A DNA stretch of 39,405 nucleotides from Lachnospiraceae bacterium (GTDB taxonomy: Bacteria; Bacillota; Clostridia; Lachnospirales; Lachnospiraceae): positions 1-39,405 of the forward strand of contig JAFOEY010000014.1 of NCBI GenBank assembly GCA_017387565.1. Direction: 5' to 3'. The position numbers and the translations under genes were made by a program. This document shows positions 20,220 through 36,513 of the stretch, one piece after another (positions within the stretch are counted from its first letter, which is position 1; each line of letters opens with the position of its first letter). The notes below the pieces were generated by a model that worked only from the letters and a program-made list of their open reading frames with translations, ran no database searches and was not told the origin of the DNA.

Positions 20220-20434
20220 CCTAACAGAAATATATATCTTTGCCCGCGGAATTTGGCGAGGTTTCTTGGCATTTCTTAGCGGCATAAGCGAACAAAAATA
20301 ATGCCCGGTTTCAACTGTTCGAAGACGAAGTCTGAGTTTTGAAACCGGGCATTTAATATGTATTTTGTGAGCATGCCGCTTAGAAATGCCGGAAACCGAA
20401 GTATGAAGCGGCAAAGATATATATTTCTGTTAGG
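20220..20434. repeat. Family A long-palindrome element, copy 1
   Basis: Nearly the whole 213-base unit folds back on itself. The outer arms are perfect for 24-25 bases (20,220-20,244 against 20,410-20,434), starting CTAACAGAAATATATATC. The middle arms carry ATTTCTTAGCGGCAT / ATGCCGCTTAGAAAT and GCCCGGTTTCAA / TTGAAACCGGGC, and the tip is AGAC-GAA-GTCT. It lies between the converging ends of the K+ channel and FMN reductase genes, where a bidirectional terminator would be expected. Confidence 0.92.
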
Positions 20435-20444
20435 ACGAAGGCAG

Positions 20445-21026
20445 TTATCTGATGAAATTCGTAAACACTTTTTCTTCCGCAACCGGCTGTTTGATACCGG
20501 ATGCTTTTCCCGCTTCGATGCTCTTTAAGATCCATACCATATTTTTTGCCAATGTACGCATGGTCTGCATGCCTTCTTCATCCTTTAGTACATCTTCGGG
20601 ATTAGAACCGTGCACCATATTCCAGTAGCAGGAAGAAACCAGCGGCATCTGATTAAATAAAAAGTATTTGTTCAGTACATCCAATGTTGTGCTTGTTCCT
20701 GCACGTCTTGCTGATGCAATGGCTGCTGCCGGTTTATACATCAAATCATCTTTTGCAACGCCGAATAAGCGGTCTAAAAATGCCATAACTTCACCGGAGG
20801 GAGATGCATAATACACAGGACTTCCGACAATCAGACCGTCTGCACTTTTTACAGCCTCTGCCACTTCACTGACAATTTGATTCATTTCCCCATTGACTGC
20901 CTTTACACCGATATGAAACAGTTCTGTTTCAATACCCTCTTTTTGCAATTCCTTTGCAATTTCTGTTAATGCTGTATAGGTACAGCCTTTTTCTCTTCTG
21001 CTTCCGTTAATCAATACTACTTTCAT
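20445..21026 (-). CDS. Flavodoxin-like NADPH-dependent FMN reductase
   Basis: This 193-residue protein of the NADPH-dependent FMN reductase / flavodoxin superfamily shows the N-terminal phosphate-binding loop INGSRREKGCTYTAL (residues 6-20), the GSPVYYASPSG flavin loop (~73-83) and a SARRAGTSTT segment. It is probably a cytoplasmic FMN-dependent oxidoreductase (quinone, iron or xenobiotic reduction); the substrate is not evident. Its ATG lies 5 bases from the stop of the PAP2-type gene and its ribosome site (AAAGGA) is inside that gene, so the two form an operon. It is followed after 10 bases by a Family A element. Confidence 0.87.
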   Translation of the reverse strand: MKVVLINGSRREKGCTYTALTEIAKELQKEGIETELFHIGVKAVNGEMNQIVSEVAEAVKSADGLIVGSPVYYASPSGEVMAFLDRLFGVAKDDLMYKPAAAIASARRAGTSTTLDVLNKYFLFNQMPLVSSCYWNMVHGSNPEDVLKDEEGMQTMRTLAKNMVWILKSIEAGKASGIKQPVAEEKVFTNFIR

Positions 21027-21030
21027 GTTA

Positions 21031-21690
21031 TTAGGTCGATCCTTTCATACGAAATTGTATCCTCTCCGATACGGTTTCCGGTTTTTTATAAAACAGCTGA
21101 TATCCGGCCCATGCCAACGCCATTGCAGCAAATACATCCAAAACCGAGTGCTGCTTTACAAAGACTGTCGATAAGACAATCAGAACAGAAATCACGCAAC
21201 AGGTCTTTTTCTGCCAGTTTTTTGTAAGAACCTTTTCACTCTTTAAGGCAGCTATCATAACAACAATCGAGTTATATGCATGAATACTTGGTACCACATT
21301 GGTGGATGTATCATTGCGATAAATCATCTGAACCAGCCGGACAAAAATATTGTCTCTCTCAAAATAAGCCGGACGAATATCCAATCCATTCGGGAATAAA
21401 TAGGATATGATAATAAACAGTGTCATTCCCATGTATAAATACTTTATCATCCGAATAAACTCTTCCTTATCTTTAAAAAAGAAAATCAGAAACATCCCGA
21501 CAATATAAGGAAACCAGATGAGATAGGGAACGATAAAAATCTCAAGAAACGGTATTTTATGGTCTATCCCAATTGAAACAATGGTTACCTGTTGGTTTCT
21601 TTTTTCAATCAACATAAAGCAAAGCATATATAAGGGACAATACAGGGCTGTCCACCAGTATTTCATCTTTGCTTTCAACGTGTTGTTCAT
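21031..21690 (-). CDS. PAP2-superfamily membrane phosphatase-like protein
   Basis: The product has 219 residues and about six membrane helices. Two of the three phosphatidic-acid-phosphatase motifs are clear: PSIH (134-137) and KQHSVLD (179-185, with H181 and D185). The first motif (KxxxxxxRP) is represented at most by the region before RPAY (~106). This arrangement resembles the PAP2-like/inositol-phosphotransferase (Aur1-type) subgroup rather than classic PAP2. It probably acts on a lipid-linked phosphate at the membrane. The ATG has GGAG 8 bases upstream. Confidence 0.8.
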   Translation of the reverse strand: MNNTLKAKMKYWWTALYCPLYMLCFMLIEKRNQQVTIVSIGIDHKIPFLEIFIVPYLIWFPYIVGMFLIFFFKDKEEFIRMIKYLYMGMTLFIIISYLFPNGLDIRPAYFERDNIFVRLVQMIYRNDTSTNVVPSIHAYNSIVVMIAALKSEKVLTKNWQKKTCCVISVLIVLSTVFVKQHSVLDVFAAMALAWAGYQLFYKKPETVSERIQFRMKGST

Positions 21691-21836
21691 GAAATCATCT
21701 CCATATTTACTAACCTAAAACAAAAAACTTTTTATAACAATATTTATCATTACGAATGCTTCATTACCACTCTGCTTTTACTATACCCAATTAGAATAGA
21801 AAACTTTCTCAACCGCACAATTATAAAAAGGCGGTA

Positions 21837-22862
21837 TTAATTAAAATGATATATTTTCTGTGCCAGATCATATCCTTTTTCAATAATCTTATGCCTTGCA
21901 CGTCCGTCTTTTTCTATGATTTTGGTTAAAATCTGTTTATGTACAATTTCATACATTTCCTCGCCGCGTGCATGTAAATCCTGCCACAGGGCCTCTTTTT
22001 TTGCAAGGCTTTCGGGACTTCCTTCCCGAACCAGCAGGGCTGAACTGACAGACAAAATCATTGCCAGATATTGTGCCATGTAATCCTGAAGCTTTTCATT
22101 CTCGATTTTTGATAAGTCATGCATCTCTATCATCAGGCGATTTACATACAACTGCTGGTCAATACGTCCAATCATAACCTTTTCATTGACAGACTGATCT
22201 GCCCTTCCGATTTTGTAATCATACAAATCCAAATCCATATAATACATTTTTTTAACAAACGGAAGCGGATAATATACAAAAATGTTATCCACATAAAAAG
22301 TATGCTTGGGCAATTGCAATCCACATTCCTTTAACAATGCCGTACGATATACAACAGCATGCATCAACAGATTGTGTCCCACTTTGAAATGACCGACATC
22401 GTCCCAGCCGAAAACCTTATTTTGAGGAAAAGCACTTTTGTAATCAATAACGACTTTCCGGTGCTCTCCTTCCTTATCATACATATAATTCGCAATAAAC
22501 ATATCTAATTGGCAGTCTTCTTCCTGATATGACTGTAATGCTGTAATCATACGTTTTAAGGAATCTTCATCCAGATAATCATCACTGTCCAATACTTTGA
22601 AATAAATCCCTTGTGCATGATGTAGTCCGCACATCACAGCATCTCCGTGACCACCGTTTTCTTTATATATGTAATGAACAATTTCCGGATATTCCGCTTC
22701 CAGATCTTTTCCTATTTCACCTGTTTTATCCGTTGATCCGTCATCGACAATTAAAACTTCCACTTCATTGCCACCGGAAACTGCCGATAAAACCGCCGTC
22801 TTCATATAATCCTGTGAGTTATAACAGGGAATGGCTATGGTGATTAACTTTTTTTCCAACAA
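21837..22862 (-). CDS. Family 2 glycosyltransferase
   Basis: The product has 341 residues. The GT-A fold of family 2 is clear at the N-terminus: TIAIPCYNSQDYM (7-19), VLIVDDGSTDKTGEI (~36-50), NGGHGDAVMCGLHHAQG, and the metal-binding VLDSDDYLDEDSL (~91-103). The C-terminal ~130 residues are helical without membrane segments. The start is TTG, with AAGGG about 10 bases upstream; the next ATG lies inside the catalytic fold, so TTG is required. It probably adds a sugar to a cell-surface glycan. The PAP2-type gene downstream could belong to the same envelope task. Confidence 0.87.
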   Translation of the reverse strand: MLEKKLITIAIPCYNSQDYMKTAVLSAVSGGNEVEVLIVDDGSTDKTGEIGKDLEAEYPEIVHYIYKENGGHGDAVMCGLHHAQGIYFKVLDSDDYLDEDSLKRMITALQSYQEEDCQLDMFIANYMYDKEGEHRKVVIDYKSAFPQNKVFGWDDVGHFKVGHNLLMHAVVYRTALLKECGLQLPKHTFYVDNIFVYYPLPFVKKMYYMDLDLYDYKIGRADQSVNEKVMIGRIDQQLYVNRLMIEMHDLSKIENEKLQDYMAQYLAMILSVSSALLVREGSPESLAKKEALWQDLHARGEEMYEIVHKQILTKIIEKDGRARHKIIEKGYDLAQKIYHFN

Positions 22863-23253
22863 GTTTATCTATCCCTTCTTTATTTTAACTGGTTAAAATG
22901 TATTATTTATCCGTTACAATAGCTTTCCATACCAATCAATTCATTAAAATCAGTCATTGAACCTGACATTTGATACAAAAAATTAATATTTATCATAAAA
23001 ACCAGTAATTCATATTATCATATTTTGAAAGCACTCTCAATTTATAATTTATTATATTATTCTTAATTTTTTCGACTTTTTATTATTTCTGTCACTTTCT
23101 GTCATATTTACAAATCACCAAACAAAAAACTGTCGCGCCTACCCATGTAAACGCGACAGTCCTTTTATATTTTCCCTTTTCGGATTTTATATTTTATATA
23201 TTTTTACAAAATCGAAAATCACAATACCCTACATTTTACAAGATATCCATATC
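22863..23253. other. AT-rich intergenic region (391 bp)
   Basis: This holds a terminator for the surface-protein gene near its right end and, by position, the promoter of the glycosyltransferase gene. I find no good hexamer pair and no coding sequence in it. Confidence 0.5.
23129..23160 (-). terminator. Terminator of the surface-protein gene
   Basis: On the minus strand ACTGTCGCG and CGCGACAGT form a perfect 9-bp stem with a 14-base loop, followed by TTTTTTG. It lies about 95 bases beyond the stop at 23,254. The plus strand also continues into T-rich sequence. Confidence 0.87.
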
Positions 23254-24759
23254 TTATAATCCAAATGAGGCAACAATTTTTGAAAATTCCGCAGAGTTGG
23301 AAAAACCTTTCATAACTTCATCCCTGCTTTTTCCTTTCTTCAGATAATTCAACCAATAGGCCTTTCCCTCAGAATCTGAGCTACGTCCTAAAAATGTTTC
23401 GTACAGGGTTTCTACATACTCTTCATCCGACAATTTCTTGTTTATGAATTCTTTAGAATGGAAAAAGCTTTCGGTTACCTCTGCCGGAGTCATTTTCTTG
23501 CTGTTAATCAGGTAGCACCAGGTTTCCACTCCGGCTGCTTCACCTTTTCTTTTTAACGCTTTTGCATAATTTCTTAATACAAAATGTCTTACATCGGCGT
23601 TGCAAATGCTGCTGCCATCCCGCTCCATCGTTCCTCTGGGAATATTGTATTCATCACATATTTCGGTAAATTCATTGGAATTAGCAAAGCAAGACATAAC
23701 TACGGTTCTGCTCTGTCCTTCTTGCAATGCTTTTAACCAGTAAGCCTTTCCTTCTGCATCGGGCTTTCTTCCGAGAATGGTCTGATATAAATCATCCAAA
23801 TACTCCTCATCTGTGCGGTTCTTTGCCTGATATTCCCTACTGGAGAAGAATTGATATGTAATTCCGGCTGCATCTATTTTTTGATCTACTAATTTATCAC
23901 ACCAATAATCCAATCCTTCGTCATCGTAGTTTCGGCCCAATGCAATGCTATACATGCGGCTGACAAAATTTTCAGCATCTTCTCTGGAAATTGTCTGCAT
24001 AAAGTCATCAACATTATCGGAAGGTTCATCCGACGGTTCTTGTGTTGGAGTATCGGATTTCTTACCTTCTGATTTTTTAATAATCGTATAGGTAGAAAAC
24101 TTCTCACTTGAGAAAGATGCCACAGTCTGTCCACCCTGATTATTAATATTCAACGGAATCTCTTGACATTCTCCATTATGATCACGAACAAGTGCAAGCT
24201 CTTCATTATCTTCTAATGTAATATCATTCAATACCAGCTCAATATCAACCGGATTATTTAAATCAGTCAGATTATTTTTCCAGAATTTGTCTTCTGTTAC
24301 TGCCAGTTCTCCTCGTTTTGCCTGTGCCTGCTCTTCCTCTGAAAGGTTTCCTGCCTTTGCCACAATCTGATCAACTTCAATATTTAAGGATGCAACAGCT
24401 TCTCCATCTACTACTGCAAGCGCTTTTGTATCATCATATCCGGCATCATCCTTTACCGTTAAAGCAAGATTTCCGGAATCTACAACATCCGCTGTACCAC
24501 CTATCGTGGCAGAAGTGACTTCTTGTGCATCTCCTACATCCACAACATCCGCTGCTTCTTCAAACAGTGCCTCGAAATGAATGTTTGATGTAATTTGAAA
24601 AGAAAACATGCTCTGTGTTCCGGCATCGGGTGTTAAAGGCATACCATTTAGTGATGCTGCCAGAATCTGGTATCCGGGATCCGGCGTCAACATTACCGTT
24701 GCGATTGCATTTACCGGTATATTACACTGACCACTTGCTTTCTCCGCAGCTTCTAACAT
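23254..24759 (-). CDS. C-terminal part of surface protein: DUF4214 repeats
   Basis: The open frame has 501 codons. It begins with the second half of an InlB-B-like repeat (VNAIATVMLTPDPGYQILAASLNG). A mixed region follows with VVDSGNLALTVKDD and a fragment (ELALVRDHNGECQEI...TYTIIKKSE) resembling domains before cell-wall anchors. Then comes a Pro/Ser/Asp linker (TPTQEPSDEPSDN) and three tandem DUF4214 repeats, recognised by YxxALGRxxDxEGxxYW-type motifs at about residues 270, 330 and 440 (SIALGRNYDDEG, TILGRKPDAEG, ETFLGRSSDSEG). DUF4214 occurs in secreted and S-layer-like proteins. The frame lacks a start signal and continues 24,760-26,097 in frame. Confidence 0.8.
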   Translation of the reverse strand: MLEAAEKASGQCNIPVNAIATVMLTPDPGYQILAASLNGMPLTPDAGTQSMFSFQITSNIHFEALFEEAADVVDVGDAQEVTSATIGGTADVVDSGNLALTVKDDAGYDDTKALAVVDGEAVASLNIEVDQIVAKAGNLSEEEQAQAKRGELAVTEDKFWKNNLTDLNNPVDIELVLNDITLEDNEELALVRDHNGECQEIPLNINNQGGQTVASFSSEKFSTYTIIKKSEGKKSDTPTQEPSDEPSDNVDDFMQTISREDAENFVSRMYSIALGRNYDDEGLDYWCDKLVDQKIDAAGITYQFFSSREYQAKNRTDEEYLDDLYQTILGRKPDAEGKAYWLKALQEGQSRTVVMSCFANSNEFTEICDEYNIPRGTMERDGSSICNADVRHFVLRNYAKALKRKGEAAGVETWCYLINSKKMTPAEVTESFFHSKEFINKKLSDEEYVETLYETFLGRSSDSEGKAYWLNYLKKGKSRDEVMKGFSNSAEFSKIVASFGL

Positions 24760-26097
24760 CTACTCTGCCGTATATTCTCCATGCGGACCATCGTACCCGG
24801 GGCGCAATTGATCACTACCCATATCATATCCGGCTTTTGCAATTTTGACTACCATATTTGCATCCAGATTCGGATCTGCTGTCCATCCAGGCTCATCCGA
24901 ATAATATACCTGGCTTCCGTCCTCACTGGTTACCTTTACCAGTTCTACGGTTCCATTCTCAACCCAGCTGTCATCTGAAACCTGATCTCCGGCAGCTGCA
25001 ACTTCCCCTTTATATTTTGCATTCCACCAGGATACATTTTTCCGGCTGTCAAAAGGAAACAGGCATCGAATTGCATATGTGTTATTTTGACCAGATACAT
25101 CCCAAAAACCAGATACATCCAAAATGAGACCATCAATCGGAACATCGTGTTTGACATCGGGATCATATGCTTCACTATTTTTTAAATAGTCTTCCCATTC
25201 ACGATTTGTAGATTCACTAAATCCTTTCATTCTATTATCATGATAACTCCAATATTTCAGTAGACTAAGTGCATTCTCATCTATCTGCCAGTTTCCCTGA
25301 TTATCTTTTTTGTAAATTTCAAATCCTAGATGATTGCCTCCAAGATCTTTTCCGGTTTTAATTTTTACATAGTTGTTTCCACCAGTTGAGATACCAAATA
25401 ATGTGCCTTTGTTAGCATCTGTAACATTTGACAGACAATTTTCTACCATTGATCTATCAAGTGTAACCGGATTGGTATATGAATTTTCACTATTATCTGC
25501 AGAAAACGAATAAGAGATATCTCCTACGGAATTGCCAACCCACTGGGAAAGAATATTGATACCGGGTGCTAAATACTGGGTATACTGATCTTCCCAGGAA
25601 CCGCCACCATTCTCAGGATTATTCCCAGGATTATTTCCGGGATTATTCCCAGGATTACTGGTATCATTCGTTTCTATGGAAACTACATAAATGCGTGAAT
25701 TCCCTTCATTATCTAATGTTGCCGTAAAAGAATATGTATTTGTTGTATTATTCCAGTTTCCACCAGCTGCCGGCATAGCATTTTCTGCTTCGCCTTCTGA
25801 AGCCTGTACATTATTAATCACAATGTTTTCTTTTGGATTTACCATAATCTTTACACTACTATTATTGGCAATATTACTTATCCAAATCGCTCTTCCTGCA
25901 TCAGCCAAACTTTTATCCAAAAGTACCGGTGATGTTTCTTCAATCTGATATCTAATATCCACCTTATCCAAATCATCAGCCGAAAATTTCAATTTGATTT
26001 CCGGATCATCTGCTTTTACCGATTTTGCAGGCAATAGCGAAAATGCCATAGCCAGACATAGTAACATGGCTATCCATTTTTTGATTTTTTTCCTCAT
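24760..26097 (-). CDS. N-terminal part of secreted surface protein
   Basis: The open frame has 445 codons and a textbook signal peptide: MRKKIKKW, a hydrophobic core (IAMLLCLAMAFSLL), and a cleavage site near SVKA-DD (~29). Residues ~150-165 are a NNPG tandem repeat. The rest is extracellular sequence without a domain I can name. The ATG has GGAGGG six bases upstream, a strong signal. It ends at TAG with the continuation in the same frame, so the product as it stands would be released without its DUF4214 region. Confidence 0.8.
   Translation of the reverse strand: MRKKIKKWIAMLLCLAMAFSLLPAKSVKADDPEIKLKFSADDLDKVDIRYQIEETSPVLLDKSLADAGRAIWISNIANNSSVKIMVNPKENIVINNVQASEGEAENAMPAAGGNWNNTTNTYSFTATLDNEGNSRIYVVSIETNDTSNPGNNPGNNPGNNPENGGGSWEDQYTQYLAPGINILSQWVGNSVGDISYSFSADNSENSYTNPVTLDRSMVENCLSNVTDANKGTLFGISTGGNNYVKIKTGKDLGGNHLGFEIYKKDNQGNWQIDENALSLLKYWSYHDNRMKGFSESTNREWEDYLKNSEAYDPDVKHDVPIDGLILDVSGFWDVSGQNNTYAIRCLFPFDSRKNVSWWNAKYKGEVAAAGDQVSDDSWVENGTVELVKVTSEDGSQVYYSDEPGWTADPNLDANMVVKIAKAGYDMGSDQLRPGYDGPHGEYTAE
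25616..25660. repeat. 12-bp tandem repeat encoding NNPG units
   Basis: Units of GGATTATTCCCA (plus strand) repeat about 3.5 times with single-base changes, encoding N-N-P-G on the minus strand. In-frame repeats of this kind make flexible linkers and change copy number easily. Confidence 0.8.
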
Positions 26098-26251
26098 CTT
26101 TTTCCCTCCTACAGCTTATGATTTATGTATAAGAATTACTTCATTGCTTTGCAGCATTTGTAATTCTCTATAACTAAAAATATATCATTTTTATCAATTA
26201 AATTTAAAGCACATTCCCACTTTTGTCATTTGCCTGTTTCGACAATTTTAC

Positions 26252-26348
26252 TTTCCATATAGCATGCCATCTTTTATAATAGAGTTGTATGGTATCAATA
26301 ATCTAAATTGTACCTAAGTCAACCATATATATCTCAAAGATATATATG
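26252..26348 (+). promoter_or_regulatory. Promoter and 11-bp palindrome upstream of the double-HTH regulator
   Basis: TATAAT at 26,275-26,280 has a weak TTTCCA 17 bases upstream (26,252-26,257). Between the expected transcript start and the gene is a perfect inverted repeat CATATATATCT-CAA-AGATATATATG (26,324-26,348). It could be an autoregulatory operator or leader hairpin. It also equals the joined outer arms of Family A elements. The other ~150 bp toward the surface gene show nothing I can name. Confidence 0.6.
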
Positions 26349-26378
26349 ATTAAAGGTTGTCACAAAGGGGATTTTTAT

Positions 26379-28112
26379 ATGACTTTTCAGGATTTGTTTA
26401 ACAAATATATTGACAGATTGGGCTGCAGTATCAAGGATTTAGCCGATGCATCGGGACTATCTGCCTCCACCATCAGCCGTTATAAGACCGGTGAGAGAAA
26501 ACCGTTTGCCGACAGTGAACAATTACAAAATCTTGTAAGCGGCATTGTACAGATAGCTGCAGATAAAAATATCTCTGATATCAAAGAAAAAGAAGTTTAT
26601 TTCGAACTGAAAAAGGCTTTAACTGACCAATCGGACCTACATGCTGCTTTTTCCAAAAACTTTGCGACAATTTCCGATTCAATCAAAATCAATATGAAAG
26701 AGTTAGCAACTGCTATTAATTTTGACCTTTCTTATCTGTACCGCATCCGCTCCGGTCAGAGACATCCCAATGATTTGGATGACTTTGTAGATTTGTTGTG
26801 TAAATACATCGTTAAACACCATGCAGATCAAAGTGCAAAGGATTTTTTTGCCAACTACACAGGCTGTGACGTTTCGGACTTATCGACTGAGACAGCCTTT
26901 GCATCCTGTATAAAAGACGCTCTTTTTTTAAATCATACGGAATCTACCGACAAACAGATGGAAACCTTTTTAAAAAAGCTGGATGATTTCAATCTGGATG
27001 AATATATCCGTGCCATTCATTTTGATAAACTCAAGGTTCCCCATGTTCCCTTTTATTTTCCCGTTTCCAAAACATACTATGGAATTGAGCAGATGCGCCA
27101 AGGGGAGCTGGATTTTTTTAAGGCAACAGTATTATCAAAATCTTATGAACCGATTTTTATGTGTTCCGATATGCCGATGACAAAACTTGTCGAGGATATG
27201 GACTTTAATAAAAAATGGATGTTTGCCATTGCGATGGCTTTGAAAAAGGGGCTCCATCTGAATATTATCCACAATGTTGACAGACCCTTTGAAGAAATGA
27301 TGTTGGGACTTGAAGCGTGGATTCCATTATATATGACCGGGCAGATTTCGCCTTATCATTTAAAAAATATCTCCACGGAAATTTATCATCATTTTACCTA
27401 CGTATCCGGTGCTGCCGCACTTTCCGGCGAATGTATTGACGGATATCATGAGGATGGCAAGTATCATCTGAGTACAAGCAAAGAAGAATTGGCTTATTTT
27501 CATAAAAAAGCCGACCATTTGATGCAAAAAGCATCTCCTTTAATGGAAATATATACAAAAGACGATGCCTTTCGTTTTGAAACTTTTCTGAAAAAAACAG
27601 CAGAAGAAGAAAACGATCAATATAATATTTTGTCTTCGCTTCCTATTTATACATTATCAAAGGAGCTTTTGTTACAGATTATTCAAAAAGAAGATTTACC
27701 AGGCGATGATGTATCTGCTATTCTGAATTTTTATGAAAAGCAGAAAGAGCATACGTCAAAGATTTTGAAGCAAAACAAGCTAACGGATAACATACCGGAG
27801 ATATCCCGGGAAGAATTTGAAAAGAATCCGCTAATTCTCTCTCTGTCGGAAATGTTTTTTGATAAGGAAATATTTTATACTTATGATGAATATTTACAAC
27901 ATATAAATTATTCAAAAGAATTTGCTAAAAATCATGATAATTACCATTTGCAACTTAATCAGAATTCGGCATTTCGCAATATTCAGATACGGATTGTTCC
28001 AAACCATCGGGTTCTGATTTCCAAAAGCAAAACCCCGGTGATTCATTTTGCAATTTATCATCCTAAAATGGTTAATGCCCTGCAGAACTTTATTGCGCCT
28101 GTGTTTTTATAA
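26379..28112 (+). CDS. Large regulator with two XRE-type HTH domains and an unknown C-terminal domain
   Basis: The ATG at 26379 (577 residues) has AAAGGGGA 7 bases upstream; an in-frame ATG at 26346 falls inside the upstream palindrome. Two XRE/Cro-like helix-turn-helix domains can be seen: IKDLADASGLSASTISRYKTGERKP (~18-42) and MKELATAINFDLSYLYRIRSGQRHP (~105-130). The ~400 residues after them include conserved-looking segments such as FYFPVSKTYYGIEQMRQGE and GLHLNIIHNVDRPFEEMMLGLE. I recognise these as typical of long clostridial XRE proteins but can give them no function. No membrane segment is seen. It is divergent from the surface-protein gene, which is a candidate target. Confidence 0.82.
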   Translation: MTFQDLFNKYIDRLGCSIKDLADASGLSASTISRYKTGERKPFADSEQLQNLVSGIVQIAADKNISDIKEKEVYFELKKALTDQSDLHAAFSKNFATISDSIKINMKELATAINFDLSYLYRIRSGQRHPNDLDDFVDLLCKYIVKHHADQSAKDFFANYTGCDVSDLSTETAFASCIKDALFLNHTESTDKQMETFLKKLDDFNLDEYIRAIHFDKLKVPHVPFYFPVSKTYYGIEQMRQGELDFFKATVLSKSYEPIFMCSDMPMTKLVEDMDFNKKWMFAIAMALKKGLHLNIIHNVDRPFEEMMLGLEAWIPLYMTGQISPYHLKNISTEIYHHFTYVSGAAALSGECIDGYHEDGKYHLSTSKEELAYFHKKADHLMQKASPLMEIYTKDDAFRFETFLKKTAEEENDQYNILSSLPIYTLSKELLLQIIQKEDLPGDDVSAILNFYEKQKEHTSKILKQNKLTDNIPEISREEFEKNPLILSLSEMFFDKEIFYTYDEYLQHINYSKEFAKNHDNYHLQLNQNSAFRNIQIRIVPNHRVLISKSKTPVIHFAIYHPKMVNALQNFIAPVFL

Positions 28113-28187
28113 TAAATAGGCTGAAAGAATCAAGGACATAATTGACAAATAAATAACGTACCAAAGTGTACCGAATTATTTTGAGCA

Positions 28188-28225
28188 TAAAAAAAGCCGG
28201 AAACGTTGAAATATCAAGCGTTTTC
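28188..28225 (-). terminator. Terminator of the tRNA-Tyr/tRNA-Leu unit
   Basis: On the minus strand GAAAACGCTTGA and TCAACGTTTCC pair with one bulged base, followed by GGCTTTTTTTATG. It lies just past the end of tRNA-Leu. Confidence 0.75.
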
Positions 28226-28240
28226 GACCCTTTTATGAGA

Positions 28241-28324
28241 TGCTGGTGACCGGAATCGAACCGGTACGATGTCGCCACCACAGGATTTTAAGTCCTGCGC
28301 GTCTGCCAGTTCCGCCACACCAGC
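28241..28324 (-). tRNA. tRNA-Leu (TAA)
   Basis: On the minus strand this starts GCTGGTGTGGCGGAACTGGC and ends CACCAGC plus discriminator A. The anticodon stem CAGGA/TCCTG encloses CTTAAAA, giving TAA. The long variable arm (TGGTGGCGACATCG) is the class II feature expected of Leu. CCA is not encoded. Confidence 0.97.
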
Positions 28325-28448: not shown

Positions 28449-28477
28449 TTTATAACACAGTTTATATGGAATTGCAA
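28449..28477 (-). promoter_or_regulatory. Promoter of the tRNA-Tyr/Leu unit
   Basis: TTGCAA (28,472-28,477) and TATAAA (28,449-28,454) on the minus strand are spaced by 17 bases, placing the transcript start about 30 bases before tRNA-Tyr. Confidence 0.7.
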
Positions 28478-28540
28478 GTTTTTTTTACATATGCCGACGC
28501 CTTACATCGACACATTTTTCCAAGCCTTTTTCCTATGTCT

Positions 28541-30640
28541 TTACTGACGGAAACGAAGTACCACCGCAGACTTTTTCGGTAACAAAATCCGAAGCTTTCC
28601 ACCCACAACCGGACATTTCACAACATCGGTGGTAAATCCGCTTTCATCCGTCTGGATAATCCGCTCCATTTCACATTCTCTGGGTATTCCGGACTCCCAT
28701 ACCGAATATTCACGGTCTAATTCATAATCATTGTTGTTTACTAAGGTAATGTAGTGATCTCTGTCATAAAAACGGACAAATCCAAGCAGATTATAATCTC
28801 CAACCAGATATTTTAAACTTCCGAATTTAAAGGCATTGCTTTCTTTATGAATCCGAATCATGGCCTTGTGAAATTCTATCAGGTCATGGTCTTCATTTCC
28901 CCAGGGATAGGTACGTCTGTTATCGGGATCGGTAAATCCACATACACCGGCTTCGTCACCATAATAAATCGTCGGCGCTCCGGGCCATGTCATCTGTATG
29001 GTAACCGCTTCACGCATAACTGCTTTATTAACACCCTCATTGGCTGCTTCCGGTCCCATGGTATTAACACGGCCTACCCGTTTGTTGGTTCTTGTCAAAA
29101 ACCGGGAGTGATCGTGGTTGGACAGCTCATTCATGGCAATATGGAACGAATCTCCGGAAAACGCAGCCCCATGATAGTGCATGGCACCCCAGAAGCTGTC
29201 GGCATTCCCATACAAGTCTTCTCTGTAATCATCACTGTGCTTCTGCATTCCGGTCAAAAACCAGGTAATCGGTTCCATAAAAGCATCGTAATTCATGACG
29301 GTGTCCCACTCACCATTTCCAATCCATTCTCTCGGACTGCCATAGTGTTCGGCCAAAACAATTGCTTCCGGATTGGCTTCGCGTACCGCTTTATGAAAAT
29401 CTTTCCAGAACTGATGATTAAACTCCGGCGAATGACCTAAGTCTGCTGCGACATCAAGTCGCCATCCGTCTGCATTGTACGGAGGAGATACCCATTTTTT
29501 TCCAATATATAAAATATAATCATATAACTGTCGGGACCCTTCGTAATTGAGCTTCGGAAGGGTATCATGTCCCCACCAGCCATCATAAGTAGGATTATAG
29601 GGCCAGCGGTCTTGTTCATAAAAATGGAAATAATCTCTGTAAGGGCTGTCGGCTGAAATATAAGCGCCTTTTTCATATCCTTCAAAGTTTTCGTAAATAC
29701 GCTCGCGATCCAGCCATTTGTTAAAGGAACCACAGTGGTTAAACACACCGTCCAAAATGACTTTCATTCCCCGTTTATGGGCTTCTTCCACAACCTTTGC
29801 AAACAGTTCATTGGATGCTTCAAGATTTTCTTTGTTGGCAATCCGATTGATATACCGGGTGGCATCTTTATTTTCATTTTGCCACGGCTCGAGTAAATTA
29901 CCGCTATCATTCACAATCTTTCCAAAGTGCGGATCGATATAGTCATAATCCTGAATATCATATTTATGATTGGAAGGCGATACAAATAACGGATTAAAAT
30001 AGATAACATCTATCCCCAGGTCCTGCAAATAGTCCATCTTATCCATAACACCCTGTAAATCACCGCCGTAAAACTCTCTGACACCCATCGTTGCCGGATA
30101 TTTATTCCAGTCTTCCACTTTGGTTACATGTTCACCGATGTAATTGTATTCGTCTGTCAGAACATCATTGGAAGGATCTCCGTTATAGAATCGATCCACA
30201 TAAATCTGATACATTACGGCACCTTTTGCCCATCTTGGCACATGATGTCCCGGGACAATCACAAATTTATAATAATCTTCCGCAGTTTTGGCAACTCCGC
30301 GAAAATCATAGACACAGGTAAGTTTTCCTGCACTTACTTCAAAATAGTAAGAAACCTTTTCGTCATCCAGTTGGAGCTCATACTCATACCAGTCAAAAAG
30401 GTCATCACTTTTATACTTCATCATCAAATGCTTTTCATTTTTACAGACAAAGTATACTTTATCAATATTATTTTTTGCTGCACGGAATTTAATGGTTACG
30501 ATACTGTAAGGATTTGGATCCGGGGGGCAGACAAATTCGGATGACATATCCGAAAATAAAGCCCTTTTATTAAGAACAGGCCGCATGCCTGACATATAAG
30601 TCTGATTATTTTGGATTCTGGATAAATCGCTGTATAGCAT
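28541..30640 (-). CDS. GH13 alpha-amylase-family glucan hydrolase (neopullulanase/cyclomaltodextrinase type)
   Basis: The product has 699 residues. An N-terminal beta-rich domain (~1-130, CBM34-like) precedes the catalytic barrel. GH13 conserved regions are present: DGVFNHCG (297-304), GWRLDVAAD with nucleophile D396, VLAEHYG with acid/base E431, and SNHDHSR with transition-state D510. The N-terminal domain and the MYQIYVDRFYNGD segment (~143) point to the cyclomaltodextrinase/neopullulanase/maltogenic subgroup, which cuts alpha-glucans inside the cell; no signal peptide is present. The ATG has GGAGGG 8 bases upstream. It is monocistronic, with no other sugar genes alongside. Confidence 0.93.
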   Translation of the reverse strand: MLYSDLSRIQNNQTYMSGMRPVLNKRALFSDMSSEFVCPPDPNPYSIVTIKFRAAKNNIDKVYFVCKNEKHLMMKYKSDDLFDWYEYELQLDDEKVSYYFEVSAGKLTCVYDFRGVAKTAEDYYKFVIVPGHHVPRWAKGAVMYQIYVDRFYNGDPSNDVLTDEYNYIGEHVTKVEDWNKYPATMGVREFYGGDLQGVMDKMDYLQDLGIDVIYFNPLFVSPSNHKYDIQDYDYIDPHFGKIVNDSGNLLEPWQNENKDATRYINRIANKENLEASNELFAKVVEEAHKRGMKVILDGVFNHCGSFNKWLDRERIYENFEGYEKGAYISADSPYRDYFHFYEQDRWPYNPTYDGWWGHDTLPKLNYEGSRQLYDYILYIGKKWVSPPYNADGWRLDVAADLGHSPEFNHQFWKDFHKAVREANPEAIVLAEHYGSPREWIGNGEWDTVMNYDAFMEPITWFLTGMQKHSDDYREDLYGNADSFWGAMHYHGAAFSGDSFHIAMNELSNHDHSRFLTRTNKRVGRVNTMGPEAANEGVNKAVMREAVTIQMTWPGAPTIYYGDEAGVCGFTDPDNRRTYPWGNEDHDLIEFHKAMIRIHKESNAFKFGSLKYLVGDYNLLGFVRFYDRDHYITLVNNNDYELDREYSVWESGIPRECEMERIIQTDESGFTTDVVKCPVVGGKLRILLPKKSAVVLRFRQ

Positions 30641-30653
30641 TGAAAACGCCCTC

Positions 30654-30695
30654 CATAATTACCCTATATATTGTATATAATATCATAATTACCCT
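30654..30695 (-). promoter_or_regulatory. Direct 12-bp repeats upstream of the GH13 gene
   Basis: AGGGTAATTATG (minus strand) occurs twice, at 30,684-30,695 and 30,654-30,665, one start per 30 bases, i.e. about three DNA turns. The AT-rich space between (TATATACAATATAT-like) may include the -10 region. Paired sites at this spacing would suit a regulator binding one face of the helix, but the second copy is close to the ribosome site. The rest of the 535-bp space up to ftsH holds a Family A copy, the ftsH terminator and about 160 bases with nothing recognisable. Confidence 0.4.
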
Positions 30696-30726
30696 TGGCA
30701 TGCCACTATATAGTTTTATTTTTTCC

Positions 30727-30961
30727 CTTTTTGGATTTGTGTTTCCAATATATATCTTTGTCCGCCGGCTTTTACGAAGTTTCGTGTCTTTCTAAGCGGC
30801 ATGAGCGAACAAAATAATGACCGGTTTCAACTGTCCGAAGACGAAGTCTGAGTTTTGAAACCGGTCATTTCATATTATTTTGTGAGCATGCCGCTTAGAA
30901 AGACTAGAAACTGAAGTATGAGGCGGACAAAGATATATATTGGAAACACAAATCCAAAAAG
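30727..30961. repeat. Family A long-palindrome element, copy 2
   Basis: The outer arms 30,727-30,766 and 30,922-30,961 are perfectly complementary over 40 bases. The Family A core starts at TATATATCTTTG; the ~22 bases outside it (TTGGATTTGTGTTTCC...) are unique to this copy yet still paired. The middle arms read GACCGGTTTCAA / TTGAAACCGGTC where copy 1 has GCCCGG / CCGGGC, and TCTTTCT / AGAAAGA where copy 1 has CATTTCT / AGAAATG. Both differences keep the pairing. It lies between the ftsH terminator and the GH13 promoter. Confidence 0.93.
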
Positions 30962-30982
30962 AGATTTTCTTTATAAAAAGGA

Positions 30983-31013
30983 AAAAAGACAGCGGTCGCA
31001 CAGCTGTCTTTTT
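30983..31013 (-). terminator. Terminator of the core cluster, downstream of ftsH
   Basis: AAAAAGACAGC and GCTGTCTTTTT are perfectly paired over 11 bp with a 9-base loop. The T-tract works for ftsH transcripts and is also present on the other strand. Confidence 0.9.
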
Positions 31014-31175
31014 CGAGAAGGTATTTCTTTTGGGGTATAGCAAAAAACTATGTAATGTATTGGGGGGTTACAAGTATATTCTAACAAATATCTGAAAATA
31101 ATCTACTCTCACGTTTCACAAACATTACAAAGGTTTTGGTTGTTTTTTGTACATATTGCACAAATTCGGTGCGCT

Positions 31176-33002
31176 TTATTCTACATTACGGTCTTCAAAG
31201 AGCTCTGCAAACTCTTCCATGGTGATGCGTTCTTTCTCAAGTAAAAGCTCTGCACAGGCATGAAGCACGTCTTCATTTTCCAAAATCAGCTCTTTTGCCT
31301 TTTGGTAACAGTCATCCACAATGGCTTTTACTTCTGCATCAATCATACCTGCAACCTGTTCACTGTATGCTTTGGTATGGGCCAAATCACGACCGATAAA
31401 GACGTCGTCACCATTTTCATCGTAATTGATCGTTCCGATGTTTTCCGACATACCATAACGGGTTACCATACGGCGTGCTGTCTCGGTTGCCTTTTTAATA
31501 TCGCTCGATGCACCGGTCGTAATGTCATCAAAAATAATTTCTTCGGCAATTCGTCCACCAAGGGAAACCATAATCTCATGGAGCATCTTTCCTTTGGTTA
31601 AAAACATTTCATCTTTTTCGGGTAAAGGCATGGTATAACCTGCCGCACCCAGACCGGTCGGTATAATGGAAACCGTATAAACCGGTCCAACATCCGGAAG
31701 TACATGGAATAAAATCGCATGTCCTGCTTCATGGTATGCGGTAATTTTCTTTTCCTCATCGGAGATAATCCGGCTTCTTTTTTCCGTACCAATTCCGGTT
31801 TTGATAAATGCTTTTTTAATATCTTCGGCACTGATAAAAATACGATTCTCTTTTGCTGCGTTAATCGCGGATTCATTTAAGAGATTTTCCAAATCCGCAC
31901 CGGTATAACCTGCAGTTGTACGCGCGATATGTGTTAAATCCACATCATCTAAGAGCGGTTTATTTTTGGCATGAACCTTTAATATCTCTTCTCGTCCACC
32001 GACATCCGGAGGTCCGATGACAATCTTTCTGTCAAAACGACCGGGACGTAAAATGGCAGGATCCAAAATATCCACACGGTTTGTTGCTGCTAAGACAATA
32101 ATGCCGGTATTTTCCTCAAAACCGTCCATTTCCACCAATAACTGGTTTAAGGTCTGTTCTCTTTCATCATGTCCGCCACCCATACCGGTTCCACGTTTTC
32201 TGGCAACGGCATCGATTTCATCGATAAATACGATACAGGGATGGTTCTTCTGCGCATCCTCAAACAGGTCTCTGACACGGGATGCACCGACACCGACGAA
32301 CATTTCCACAAAATCCGAACCGGAAATGGAAAAGAAAGGAACGCCTGCCTCCCCGGCAATGGCTTTGGCCAATAATGTTTTACCGGTACCGGGAGGTCCT
32401 TCTAATAAAATACCTTTGGGAATCCGAGCTCCGACTTTTGTATACTGTGCCGGATTCTTTAAAAAGCTAATGATTTCTTCAAGCTCTTCCTTTTCTTCTT
32501 TCAGTCCGGCAACATCTTTTAAAGTCGTTTTATTACTGTCTCCCATAACCATACGAGCCCGGCTTTTTCCAAAATTCATCATTTTGTTGCCACCGGCGCC
32601 TCCACCCGCAGATGCATTGATTAACATCATAAAAATAACCAGGCAGACAACGGCAATCAGGATTGGCATGGCAATGGATTTAAACCAGGTATCCTGCGGA
32701 ATATTATCGCGCATGACGAAAATATCATTTCTTTCCAGTAAATCTTCCATCTCTTCCACATCCGCTACATATAGTACCGCTGTGGTTCCGTCACGAAACA
32801 GGATTTCCAAACGACCGCTGGGGGTCTGCGTATTGGGGATGATTTCGACCTCACTGATTTTACCATCCTTTATATCCTGTTTAAACTGTGCCCTCGTATA
32901 ATCACGGGGCGAACTTTTTCCCATTTCAATAAAAACGGAAATAATCAATAACACTACAATGGCGATTACAATAAATCCCATTCCTTGTCTTTTCTTTTCC
33001 AA
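31176..33002 (-). CDS. ftsH: FtsH ATP-dependent zinc metalloprotease
   Basis: This is a 608-residue membrane protease. Two membrane helices (~9-26 and ~108-129) flank an extracytoplasmic loop. The AAA module has Walker A GPPGTGKT (202-209), Walker [11 protein letters not shown], and the second region of homology with [10 protein letters not shown]. The protease carries HEAGH (424-428). It degrades membrane and some soluble proteins as a hexamer. The start is TTG with GAGGAG 8 bases upstream inside the end of hpt, so it is translationally tied to hpt. The tilS-hpt-ftsH order is the standard Firmicute arrangement. Confidence 0.97.
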
Positions 33003-33006
33003 TGAC

Positions 33007-33534
33007 TTACTCCTCTACTTCCAAAACACCTACATAAGGTAAATTTCGATATCTTTGTGCATAATCAAGACCATAACCGACAACAAACAAATCCGGGATT
33101 TCAAAACCGGTGTAGTCCGCATTAATATCCACAACCCTGCGATCCGGCTTATCCAAAAGCGCACAGAGCTTTAAAGATTTTGGATTGCGTTGTTTTAGGT
33201 TGTCCAACAGATAACTGAGTGTCCTTCCGGTATCTACAATATCTTCAATCACAATGACGTTCTTTCCGACAATCGATTCTTCCAAATCTTTTTTCATAAT
33301 AATTTTTCCGCTGGAAACGGAACTGTTCCCATAGCTTGAAACGGACATAAAATCCAATGCCACGGGGACGGTAATTCGCTTTGCGAGCTCACATGCAAAA
33401 AAACAGGCTCCCTTTAAGGTACACACCAAAAATACCTCTTCTCCTTCATAATCTTTGCTGATCTGAGCTCCCAGCTCGGCAATGCGGGCATTAACCTGTT
33501 CTTCACTCAACAGAACGCTGATCTTGTTGTTCAT
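33007..33534 (-). CDS. hpt: Hypoxanthine phosphoribosyltransferase
   Basis: The product has 175 residues. The PRPP-binding motif VIVIEDIVDTGRTL (~94-107) and the flexible-loop SVSSYGNSSVSSG (~65-77) identify a purine salvage phosphoribosyltransferase making IMP/GMP. The ATG at 33534 (GAGGAG 8 bases upstream) is preferred to the GTG one codon earlier. It overlaps the tilS stop by one base. Confidence 0.95.
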   Translation of the reverse strand: MNNKISVLLSEEQVNARIAELGAQISKDYEGEEVFLVCTLKGACFFACELAKRITVPVALDFMSVSSYGNSSVSSGKIIMKKDLEESIVGKNVIVIEDIVDTGRTLSYLLDNLKQRNPKSLKLCALLDKPDRRVVDINADYTGFEIPDLFVVGYGLDYAQRYRNLPYVGVLEVEE

Positions 33535-34874
33535 CACGTATTCTCCTCTTTCACTGTAATCTCCAGAATTTGTCTGGTTTCATCCGTAACTTTATAATAT
33601 TCACTAATCCGGTATCCGATAATCCACATAATATGGTCGCCGTCCGCAATCAGAGGAATTCGGTCTCTCATTGCAAGGGGAATTTTTTCATCCACCATAT
33701 AATCCTGCAGTTTTTTTCTTGCCGTTTTTATACAAAAAAAATAATCACCGCTTTTCCGATACCGCAATGTGGCAGTTTCTCTTATTTTATCATAATCAAA
33801 CCACTTCGTATAGTTTCCGGTCGGCACATTCTGATCTTTTTCATAGGAAAAAATTCTCATTTCCACAGCCGGCTCTATAGGTTCTTTGATATCCGAATCT
33901 GAAACATTGCTGTTCTTTTCAAAATAGAGATGATGCTGATCAACATATGCTTTCGTCTGATACAAGAGACTGATTTTCTTTCCACTCTGCCCTTCCAAAA
34001 GACCTAAAACGGCCTGTACATGCTGTCTGGTAATGTCTTTCTTTTTTTGGCAGCAGAAAGAATACATACGGTATGTCAGTTCCTGTTTCATATAGGGATG
34101 CTGATTTTTCAACCAATTGATGGCAACCCGGCATCCGGATTGTGTTGGTTCAACATATTTGACAAAAAGCCTTTCTGCCTCTTCATCCAGATACTGCAGT
34201 GCCAGATCCACACTTTCGGCACTTGCACATATATGCTCTGTCACTCCGGTGCAGATTTCTTTTTCCGCAATCGGAAGAATATCATGGCGGATACAGTTTC
34301 TGGCATAGGTTGTATCAAAATTACTCTGATCCGTCACGTAAGAAATCCCGTTTTTTGTAAGAAATTCTTCAATCTGACTGCGTGTCACACAAAGCAATGG
34401 ACGGATGTAACAATCCCTTATGGGCTGCATGCCTCTTAATCCTCTCAGGCTGCTTCCCCGAAACATCTGGAAAAGAACGGTTTCTGCCTGATCATTTTTA
34501 TGATGTGCCAGTGCAATTTTTTTCTGACTGACGGCCTCTTGTTCAAATATTTGATAGCGAAGAATTCTGGCCGATTCCTCGATTCCGGTATGATGCTCTT
34601 TCTGATAGGAAAGGACATCGATTTTTTCGATGCGGCAGGGCACCTTCCATGCATCACAAAGGTCTTTTACAAAAGCCGCTTCTTGATCAGATTCTTTCCG
34701 CAAACCGTGGTGAATATGAATTGCGGAAAGCGTAAACGGAATTTCTTTTTTTATCTGACATAGTAAGTACAACAGACAGACAGAATCGGCTCCGCCGGAT
34801 AATCCGACAACGATATGGTCGTTGGGATGAATCATATGAAATTGCTTAATAAATTGTTTTACTTTTGTAATCAT
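33534..34874 (-). CDS. tilS: tRNA(Ile)-lysidine synthase
   Basis: The product has 446 residues. The PP-loop VVGLSGGADS (22-31) and IHIHHGLR (~52-59), followed by AHHKNDQAETVLFQMFRGS, are diagnostic for TilS. This enzyme uses ATP and lysine to convert C34 of the AUA-reading tRNA-Ile to lysidine and is normally essential. The C-terminal substrate-binding domain (LRYRKSGDYFF...KKLQDYMVDEKIP) is complete. It is first of the tilS-hpt-ftsH run. Confidence 0.95.
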   Translation of the reverse strand: MITKVKQFIKQFHMIHPNDHIVVGLSGGADSVCLLYLLCQIKKEIPFTLSAIHIHHGLRKESDQEAAFVKDLCDAWKVPCRIEKIDVLSYQKEHHTGIEESARILRYQIFEQEAVSQKKIALAHHKNDQAETVLFQMFRGSSLRGLRGMQPIRDCYIRPLLCVTRSQIEEFLTKNGISYVTDQSNFDTTYARNCIRHDILPIAEKEICTGVTEHICASAESVDLALQYLDEEAERLFVKYVEPTQSGCRVAINWLKNQHPYMKQELTYRMYSFCCQKKKDITRQHVQAVLGLLEGQSGKKISLLYQTKAYVDQHHLYFEKNSNVSDSDIKEPIEPAVEMRIFSYEKDQNVPTGNYTKWFDYDKIRETATLRYRKSGDYFFCIKTARKKLQDYMVDEKIPLAMRDRIPLIADGDHIMWIIGYRISEYYKVTDETRQILEITVKEENT

Positions 34875-35040
34875 ATTGTTATTCTCTATCTGACCGGAAT
34901 TCTGATGCTCTCAAACTACTCAAAACCCTCATACTTCAATAACCTTTTGAAATTTGCTTATTTGGGATTTGCTATTTAAAATTTTACTGACATTACAGAA
35001 TTTCATCCTCTTTGCCCTTGCAACACATTATACCGCAAAA

Positions 35041-36228
35041 TCAGTTGTTGGCAAAGATACCAAAAACAATCACCGTCATATCATCCCGAATTCTGCCTCC
35101 GGCCCTGGTAATGGCCGCATTAATGATCATCACAGCCATCTGCCTCGGATTTTCAAAGGACAAATCTGCCAGAAATTCTTTCAAACTGCCTATGTTACCG
35201 TCCAGAGTATAGTCCGATGAAAATGCATCCAGGACTCCATCCGTCATCATAATTAAATAATCTCCGTCTTCTAAACCATAGGCATTTTCATCCGGCTCTT
35301 CCTTTGAAAACACACCAAGAGGTAAAGATTCGCCGGAAACTGTCCAGATATGCTTTCCCCTTTTTATAAAGGAGGCTCCCGCTCCGTATTTTAAAAACCG
35401 GCAGGTTCCCTGATATAAGTCAATTTCACAGGTATCTAAGGTAACGGTGTGGTCTTCCGTATTATTTAAACAGATCAAAGAATTCAACAAAGTCCCTGCT
35501 TTGTCTACATGAAATCCGGTCTCCATAAATTTATCGAGCAGATCTAACAGCCTCTCGCTGTCCTTTGCCGCTTCCACTCCGGAGCCCATTCCGTCGGAGA
35601 TGGCAATTAACTGCATTCCCCTGGCATATTCCCGGATTAAATAGCTGTCTCCGGATTCGGATTCATTTTCTTTTTTTGCCCTTGCAACTCCATCCAGAAT
35701 ATAATAATTCACTTCTTCTTCAAAAATCAAAAGCTTTGCTTCCTCATGGACAAAGGTTGGATTGGCTTCGTTTGACCGCAGTTTCCGGTGACAAAGCTCC
35801 GAAAGATATTCCATCAGTTCATCGGTATAAAACATTTCATCAACACGTGCTTTTATTTTCATCCCGATTTCCAGATGCTCTTCTATTTCCACGACATACA
35901 ATTCTTCAACAATTAGGTCGTTTTCCGTTAATCCCTTTTCGATTTTTCTTTTCAGCCTGTCTAAAAGGCCGGATGTCGCATAGGTTTCATTCGCCAGTTC
36001 TTTTAATGCATCCGCTGTTTCCGACAACTGGTCCGCGAGCAGACTGTTATGCTCCTGCCTCGTTTTTAAAAGATAGAGCTGCATTCCCTCTTCCGTATCC
36101 GGAGAATGTATTTCATCCTCAAAGCTTCCGGCAATCTCCTGAAGAGTATCTGCATAAAGAATCAGACGTTTCTTTCCGTATTCCGGTAAAATATTATGTT
36201 TTTCCTGTTGTAAAACACTCCGTTTCAT
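35041..36228 (-). CDS. SpoIIE-like PP2C phosphatase without the membrane domain
   Basis: The product has 395 residues. The C-terminal ~200 are a SpoIIE/PP2C phosphatase: QLIAISDGMGSGVEAAKDS, FLKYGAGASFIKR, LIMMTDGVLDAF and RDDMTVIVFGI, with the metal-binding Asp residues kept. The N-terminal ~190 residues match the cytoplasmic linker of SpoIIE. Bacillus SpoIIE is about 820 residues with ten N-terminal membrane helices; here these are absent, and the gene starts right behind a promoter, so it is not simply cut. Position between divIC and tilS is that of spoIIE. It presumably dephosphorylates an anti-anti-sigma factor like SpoIIAA, but could no longer be membrane-anchored to the septum by itself. 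Confidence 0.87.
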   Translation of the reverse strand: MKRSVLQQEKHNILPEYGKKRLILYADTLQEIAGSFEDEIHSPDTEEGMQLYLLKTRQEHNSLLADQLSETADALKELANETYATSGLLDRLKRKIEKGLTENDLIVEELYVVEIEEHLEIGMKIKARVDEMFYTDELMEYLSELCHRKLRSNEANPTFVHEEAKLLIFEEEVNYYILDGVARAKKENESESGDSYLIREYARGMQLIAISDGMGSGVEAAKDSERLLDLLDKFMETGFHVDKAGTLLNSLICLNNTEDHTVTLDTCEIDLYQGTCRFLKYGAGASFIKRGKHIWTVSGESLPLGVFSKEEPDENAYGLEDGDYLIMMTDGVLDAFSSDYTLDGNIGSLKEFLADLSFENPRQMAVMIINAAITRAGGRIRDDMTVIVFGIFANN

Positions 36229-36256
36229 AAACACCACTCATTTCCGTTTTCTTGCT

Positions 36257-36289
36257 ATTATAGTGGACAAGCTCTGAAAAAAATGTCAT
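36257..36289 (-). promoter_or_regulatory. Promoter of the spoIIE-like gene with 21-bp spacer
   Basis: On the minus strand a perfect TATAAT (36,257-36,262) has no good -35 at 17 bases but has ATGACA (36,284-36,289) at exactly 21. The Spo0A-activated spoIIE and spoIIG promoters of Bacillus are known for sigma-A hexamers spaced 21-22 bases apart. No clear 0A box remains, since a Family A element begins 16 bases further upstream. Confidence 0.6.
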
Positions 36290-36304
36290 TTTGGGGCGGG
36301 GGGA

Positions 36305-36513
36305 CAGAAAATTATATATCTTTGTCGCCTCGTACTTCAGTTTTTAGCATTTCTAAGCGGCATGCTCACAAAATATCTATTAAATGCCCGGTTTCAAAAC
36401 TCAGACTTCGTCTTCAAACAGTTGAAACCGGGCATTCTATTTTGTTCGCTTATGCCGCTAAGAAATGCACAAAACCTCGTAAAAGCCGGCGAGCAAAGAT
36501 ATATAATTTTCTG
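36305..36513. repeat. Family A long-palindrome element, copy 3 (inverted)
   Basis: The outer arms CAGAAAATTATATATCTTTG (36,305-36,324) and its exact complement (36,494-36,513) enclose the Family A core, which here reads in the opposite orientation to copies 1 and 2. The GCCCGG/CCGGGC stem and the AGAC-loop-GTCT tip are the same. The eight bases outside the TATATATCTTTG core are again unique to this copy and self-complementary. It sits between the divIC terminator and the spoIIE-like promoter. The 383-bp gap has no gene. Confidence 0.92.

Follow-up and report, generated by a model that had tools for sequence, protein, structure and literature searches.

The 39,405 nucleotides of contig JAFOEY010000014.1 (assembly GCA_017387565.1, Lachnospiraceae bacterium), which we call the window, contain three long and nearly perfect palindromes, and the question that they raise is what kind of element they are and what keeps them folded. 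All three were found where the first-pass annotation, made from the sequence alone, had placed them, and their length is, as it had remarked, unusual for REP (repetitive extragenic palindromic) or BIME elements. The RNA folding energies of copies 1, 2 and 3 were -111, -140 and -105 kcal/mol (z = -13.3, -21.2 and -14.9), with 0/200 shuffles folding as well for each, and copy 2 folded as DNA gave z = -19.9. On balance we believe that they probably represent a non-autonomous dispersed DNA foldback repeat, comparable to miniature inverted-repeat transposable elements (MITEs) or to REPINs, and one family of a phylum-wide superfamily defined by the hairpin tip. This superfamily is apparently undescribed. 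In the following, G000 is the host genome, other G numbers are compared genomes, and L and C numbers are fetched loci and contigs, respectively. The three copies are listed below; bit scores are those of the tip model R2, presented further on.

20178-20439, forward strand: copy 1, truncated full form (outer limits set by eye), with a left mid-arm remnant (20178-20232), the core (20233-20421) and a right arm stub (20422-20439)
20314-20342, forward strand: apical motif of copy 1, ACTGTTCGA-AGAC.GAA.GTCT-GAGTTTTGA, matching the tip pattern; R2 60.0 bits at 20300-20355
30724-30964, forward strand: copy 2, complete short form, its outer arms directly abutting the core (30751-30937)
30830-30858, forward strand: apical motif of copy 2; R2 57.9 bits at 30816-30871
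36290-36566, reverse strand: copy 3, inverted, shortened full form (outer limits set by eye), with the core (36315-36503) and an outer-arm remnant (36547-36565, reverse strand)
36394-36422, reverse strand: apical motif of copy 3; R2 63.0 bits at 36381-36436

The foldback repeat is real and abundant. In the 2.9-Mb host genome, 69 sites matched the 25-base tip with up to three mismatches (35 forward and 34 reverse) and 84 matched the outermost arm, which copy 2 carries in addition to the arms described earlier; reversed-pattern controls gave 0 for both. The annotation had staked its reading on further copies in the host, and these 69 tips and 84 outer arms bear it out. The tip and arm sites, or their surroundings, were taken as loci L001-L090, from which a script recovered 68 distinct tips. 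The element lies dispersed between genes and is modular, consisting from the outside inward of an outer arm (TTCCCTTTTCGGATTTGTGTTCCC), a mid-arm, found in the full form only, with some 110 bases on each side, and a core running from ATATATCTTTG to CAAAGATATAT that bears the tip, the AGAC-GAA-GTCT hairpin being set within a conserved internal loop, CTGTYYGA/GAGTT. Measured from outer arm to outer arm, the full form spans 467-478 bp and the short form mostly 231-235 bp, and intermediates exist; L009, folded as DNA, reached z = -19 across 477 nt. Deletion forms follow the same modules: L072 has arms without a core, nothing but the outer arms is left in L076, one-sided internal deletions occur in L074, L078 and L089, and L075, L086, L087 and L088 are solo halves that run into gene-like sequence.

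It had also been noticed that the arms of different copies usually change on both sides together. In an alignment of 90 intact cores, 36 from the host and 54 from relatives (A1, which omits three of the 93 intact cores, L062 being short, L094 ill-placed and L171 overlooked), the arm difference GCCCGG/CCGGGC versus GACCGG/CCGGTC is genuine and falls in columns 75-80, paired with 117-122. RNAalifold predicted 53 pairs for A1, 21 of them with changes on both sides against 6.2 ± 1.6 in shuffled alignments, with 98.5% of cells paired (shuffle mean 95.9) and a covariation score of 0.121 (0.070 shuffled); in each of the three measures, 0/500 shuffles were as high. Only 24-46% of cells paired when the partners were slid by 1-3 columns, and the alignment retains asymmetric internal loops. 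The annotation would have given up its proposal had many copies shown no excess of paired changes, and the excess is there, so that its claim of a foldback that is kept, with paired changes far above controls, stands. Its step from these changes to a kept structure, as RNA or as a DNA foldback, does not fare as well for RNA, because of inversions in place and double transversions. As for the latter, A1 has 30 distinct types of paired change, and 14 of them involve a transversion in each partner (the figure is the same without L114, a row of A1 whose right half is not element), a step that a wobble intermediate does not bridge.

Both features are familiar from another process. In the portion of PMC8604942 that concerns us, template switching between inverted repeats is described as homogenising the arms and inverting the spacers, and an argument contained in PMC8794818 holds that template switching can create and maintain RNA stems. 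Since template switching has been described as leaving this double footprint, homogenised arms and inverted spacers, paired changes alone are no proof of a kept RNA. The two footprints were found here, the first as homogenised arms with double transversions and the second as spacers inverted at orthologous sites, subject to the assembly caveat weighed below. Among 57 pairs of a host copy and a compared genome in which both flanks matched, 42 had the copy the same way round, 9 had it inverted and 6 had no recognised tip, one of these six being copy 2 in G002, a same-way copy that has lost one tip base. When only orthologous cores at least 0.9 identical were considered (n = 30), 25 had the same orientation and 5 were inverted. 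In this genus, some sites thus appear to have had the central part of the hairpin turned round in place. The likeness to the quasipalindromes treated in that part of PMC8604942 lies in arm homogenisation and spacer inversion; these, however, are united by a process and do not form a family, and the shared tip and wobble bias of the present elements need a further cause.

The shared tip emerged from searches beyond the host. Three of nine sampled genomes of the genus matched the DNA, with at least 40 scored candidates in each, and the other six gave no match. The exact 26-base tip occurred in at least 82 stretches of assembled contigs and, among the matches listed, all were in Lachnospiraceae metagenome-assembled genomes (JAGAJL01, CAMEJJ01 and, once, JAQXTA01). 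A covariance-model search, of the kind that the annotation had proposed, was run with R1, a model of the inner 112 nt including the tip, and matched 4/299 family genomes, half of them strongly and half weakly; in the two weak ones, found without the tip pattern, the foldback arms differ and the tip is of the same kind. The tip pattern itself matched 8/299 family genomes (control 0), and a stricter version matched 9/391 class genomes, one of them at 18 places (control 0). One match of the tip pattern, L192 in G137, had no symmetric foldback and was judged to be due to chance, although the same genome still holds L178. Fifteen genomes and one viral contig supplied the 24 tips of a further alignment (A3). 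Because every row except L178 was obtained through the tip pattern, the invariance of the pattern letters in A3 is by construction; this does not apply to the covariation of the flanking helix and the terminal stem. In A3, 16/17 pairs change on both sides (covariation score 0.567, 0.150 shuffled).

The tip model R2, built from A3 with two rows from the host genome, matched 29/398 phylum genomes at E ≤ 0.001, the host included, under 17 family labels, and in a control of 422,724 bases (element-free relatives plus host stretches) gave a single match with E = 0.35. The tip consensus consists of ACTGTYYGA, a mini-hairpin and GAGTTTTG. In 26 R2 loci the loop was somewhat variable, most keeping TGT-Y-Y-G to GAGTT, and the arms differed between families, so that the part common to all families is the tip. 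When folded with the match at the centre, 20 of these loci formed 50 or more pairs across the tip inside a 220-nt span and the remaining L283, L287, L288, L294, L304 and L306 had 25-48, while random 220-mers of the host genome never reached 50 (0/200; maximum 45 in 200 tries and 47 in 60 tries). Among the terminal loops of 62 deduplicated tips, 37/45 triloops were GNA and 11/16 tetraloops GNNA, with two GNRA. GNA and GNNA loops give exceptionally stable mini-hairpins in DNA rather than in RNA, d(GCGAAGC) being the known case. Searches of plasmids and phages gave no match, and neither did the 26-base tip in viral contigs; a looser tip pattern gave three matches in the latter, of which two, in a phage coding region, are probably fortuitous and the third is a foldback at the end of its stretch. 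No description of such repeats was found in the full text of open-licence PMC papers. In Rfam release 15, the window palindromes had no match at gathering score, and in 25 further loci, with permissive E-values, they aligned with nothing but hairpin families below threshold, microRNA precursors for instance. Copy numbers are to be read as lower bounds because these palindromes probably break short-read assemblies: 5 of the 14 R2 matches listed in G887 and 6 of the 14 listed in G1045 lie at most 125 bases from a contig start.

From the shared tip we infer a recognised tip, and from the foldback a single-stranded DNA. During replication, the element would fold in single-stranded DNA at the fork. 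There, template switching could use one arm to repair the other and could flip the core, so that the palindrome would stay nearly perfect. The arms, which differ between families, would need only to be self-complementary, and the folded tip may at some time have been recognised by an enzyme that acted in trans and spread the copies; no such enzyme was found in the searches described below. A broader formulation, which we offer tentatively, is that of phylum-wide mobile DNA hairpins addressed by the tip (ACTGTYYGA, a GNA or GNNA mini-hairpin, and GAGTTT), in which a trans-acting enzyme, neither a Y1 transposase nor a reverse transcriptase of the kinds tested, would recognise the folded single-stranded tip and copy the strand, the arms being free to diverge while template switching preserves the palindromes. 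Within one phylum, a single testable motif brings together a large number of palindromic repeats that look unrelated, and it makes a concrete search for the factor that reads the tip possible. The elements also offer a dense natural case in which template switching, rather than RNA selection, may partly account for paired changes, and this is a caution for the discovery of RNAs from covariation. Assembly breaks and strain-level variation would be further consequences of palindromes flipping in place.

Several observations weigh against the mobile foldback repeat proposed here. There was no match to the Y1 transposase (PF01797) or to the reverse transcriptase (PF00078) in the carriers G002 and G008, and no clear target duplication of fixed length. 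The differences at the window sites among carriers are deletions plus one inversion, with no recent insertions. The conservation of the tip is partly by construction, since most tips were gathered with the pattern or with a model trained on it. All compared genomes are assemblies, and the inverted cores adjoin exact arm repeats of 31-40 bp (of 15 bp in one partial copy), so that faulty assembly may have caused the inversions. Orientation relative to replication was inconsistent, the sampled host contigs leaning one way and the relatives giving 24/37 and 16/38. Finally, the changes between orthologous copies (25 rows, reduced to 19 by dropping 6 with core identity below 0.9 as likely mispaired, and with three host copies used twice) show a bias: one-sided changes between Watson-Crick and G-U pairs outnumber those between Watson-Crick and A-C (30 vs 13, p = 0.014), and paired columns change less than unpaired ones (60/2014, 3.0%, vs 77/1534, 5.0%; p = 0.002). 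This G-U excess and the slower paired columns are not expected from template switching alone, and they hint that, besides template switching, there is a weaker selection for the way in which the tip-bearing strand folds.

The strand-specific wobble bias and the slower paired columns are what a family of non-coding RNA genes would predict, in which the copies are transcribed, the internal loop of the long hairpin binds a protein and the paired changes are selected; the 118 G-U versus 38 A-C cells in A1 and the asymmetric internal loop, which is common to the families and carries GA on each strand, point in the same direction. We nevertheless regard this explanation as unlikely, because inversions in place and double transversions do not suit it, the palindromes lack an Rfam match at gathering score, the tetraloops are GNNA and rarely GNRA, and between tandem neighbours the copies show no clear strand preference (21 same-sense versus 16 antisense; 9 versus 10 in the other families). 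The surroundings of the copies would fit a role for the host, that of a bidirectional terminator or insulator between convergent genes. Intact copies with both neighbours known prefer convergent 3' ends (40 convergent, 37 tandem and 10 divergent; n = 87, leaving out the 5 of 92 copies without a gene on one side and counting orthologues repeatedly), compared with 16 convergent, 104 tandem and 16 divergent among 136 gaps of 60-700 bp taken as background from 16 host stretches (p = 1.5e-8). The preference holds in the host genome alone (15/36 copies between convergent genes, p = 1.3e-4), stop codons are often 20-60 bp from the copies, and the other families (n = 34) had 8 convergent, 3 divergent, 19 tandem and 4 unknown arrangements. 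Promoter avoidance could yield the same convergent bias, however, and several copies sit, as read by eye, after the ordinary terminator of a neighbour; no T-run follows the outer arm, copies erode by deletion, and 6/9 genus genomes manage without the element, so that a host-useful terminator seems to us quite improbable.

Two further alternatives concern the enzyme. The elements might be MITEs of an ordinary terminal-inverted-repeat (DDE) transposon that recognises the outer arm, TTTTCGGATTTGTGTTCCC, as its end. Outer arms do persist in solo, arms-only and core-less remnants, and, in a set of 44 copies that includes orthologues, the left and right flanks of a copy are at several offsets more alike than flanks paired by shuffling. 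Yet no duplication length or offset stands out, the families have the tip in common and not the ends, and in 20 outer-arm stretches of the host genome no transposon with the same ends was seen; the sole gene between facing arms, a 131-aa reading frame in L071 whose outer arms face each other 840 bp apart, had no Pfam match at cut-off and no transposase-like match. We therefore consider this origin improbable. The chances of a REP or REPIN moved by a Y1 REP-associated tyrosine transposase (RAYT) appear slight. Some PF01797 match was present in 34/46 carrier genomes, and in G335 a RAYT (NF047646, 81.7 bits with a cut-off of 80) sits between two copies, 5 of the 7 R2 matches of that genome lying within this 13-kb stretch. 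But 12/46 carriers, including G002, G008 and G289, had no PF01797 match, and no R2 copy was found in the flanks of 50 Y1 loci checked out of 105 listed Y1 places. The RAYT stretch of G335 (L308, G335:C3:738500-757000) holds many short hairpins with a GTAG foot (GTAGGGGCGAC..GTCGCCC), of the RAYT kind dealt with in sections of PMC3733652, PMC6006769 and PMC3116915, and the interpretation of G335 as a REPtron was dropped because its RAYT has these hairpins of its own. Read by eye, the short form shows no GTAG or CGTC foot at either end; CGTC is located inside the mid-arm. Reverse transcriptase matches were five in G000. For the mobile foldback repeat that we favour, the mover has either been lost in this clade or is of another kind.

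In their way of working the elements are closest to MITEs and REPINs, and by test they are not REPINs. With REP and REPIN sequences they share being dispersed, intergenic, hairpin-forming and non-autonomous, with tens of copies per genome. Nonetheless, REPs are 20-40 bp according to a part of PMC3733652 (in whose main text neither "Clostrid" nor "Firmicutes" occurs) and the present elements 230-475 bp; REPs have a GTAG or CGTC foot in place of a common apical internal loop; and REPINs need a RAYT, whereas two of the three genus carriers had no Y1 match and no copy flanked the gene in the 50 Y1 loci checked, with one exception in G335. They do have the terminal inverted repeats without a gene that define MITEs. 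MITEs and like repeats (ERIC, Correia, RUP and bcr) are inverted-repeat, gene-less and dispersed, and have deletion derivatives, all of which applies here. They differ in that no clear target duplication or parent transposon was found and in that families with different arms are joined by a common tip.

At the level of individual sites, the copies of the window look old and vertically inherited when the related genomes are aligned. The site of copy 1 has an orthologous copy in G008 and a deletion in G002, where one arm remains. G002 carries copy 2 in the same orientation, less one base of the tip, and in G008 the core of copy 2 is inverted between unchanged outer arms and flanks. At the site of copy 3, G002 has an internal deletion and G008 arm remnants only. 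G006, which has 88% protein identity at a neighbouring gene, lacked the element where copies 2 and 3 lie, the stretch compared not reaching the site of copy 1.

The genes on either side of the three window copies are as follows:

18975-20171, forward strand: ion channel gene, convergent with the next across copy 1
20445-21026, reverse strand: FMN reductase gene, on the other side of copy 1
28541-30640, reverse strand: alpha-amylase gene, beside copy 2
31176-33002, reverse strand: FtsH gene, beside copy 2
35041-36237, reverse strand: SpoIIE-domain gene, beside copy 3
36621-36935, reverse strand: DivIC-like gene, beside copy 3

In agreement with the annotation, which had seen no transposase near the palindromes, these six genes and four more were all ordinary. 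The same was true of 9 of 10 proteins encoded between copies in six genomes, which were ordinary or surface proteins, the tenth being the RAYT of G335; further neighbours were judged ordinary by eye. Copies on the same contig tend to be co-oriented in G000 (60/91 pairs, p = 0.007) and G008 (44/68, p = 0.026), with 11/20 pairs in G002 (p = 0.40). Co-oriented copies were seen on contigs C2, C4, C38 and C44 of G000 and C1 of G008, with no consistent relation to the direction of replication. A replication-strand bias is not claimed, the sense-G-rich counts being 20/68 in the host (short flanks) and 38/83 in relatives (longer flanks), beside the 24/37 and 16/38 given above.

Other repeats accompany the elements. 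Locus L079 (about 600-850, G000:C31) holds one related palindrome with the tip AATGCCGGATTTC..AAAGACCTTTAGGTCT..GAAATCCGGCATT, perhaps of a divergent sister family. Another palindromic repeat (ACCAGGGTCAAAAGG...), or its words, occurs close to some copies (the flank of L005, L054, L059 and L071), and words resembling it also border the Clostridiales-1 stretch of the window. Clostridiales-1 (RF01699) is, like the palindromes, intergenic, structured and present in several copies in the host genome, but the palindromes match neither this nor any other Rfam family at gathering score. Two copies of it lie in the window, at 18656-18820 and 39241-39405, which are 96% complementary and of which one ends the contig, and three more were found within 140 kb of the host genome. 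The stretch at the 18.6-kb site is missing from G008 and shortened in G002, and this listed small RNA looks like a mobile or dispersed repeat. The same 140 kb contain two TwoAYGGAY (RF01731) RNAs (L250 and L253).

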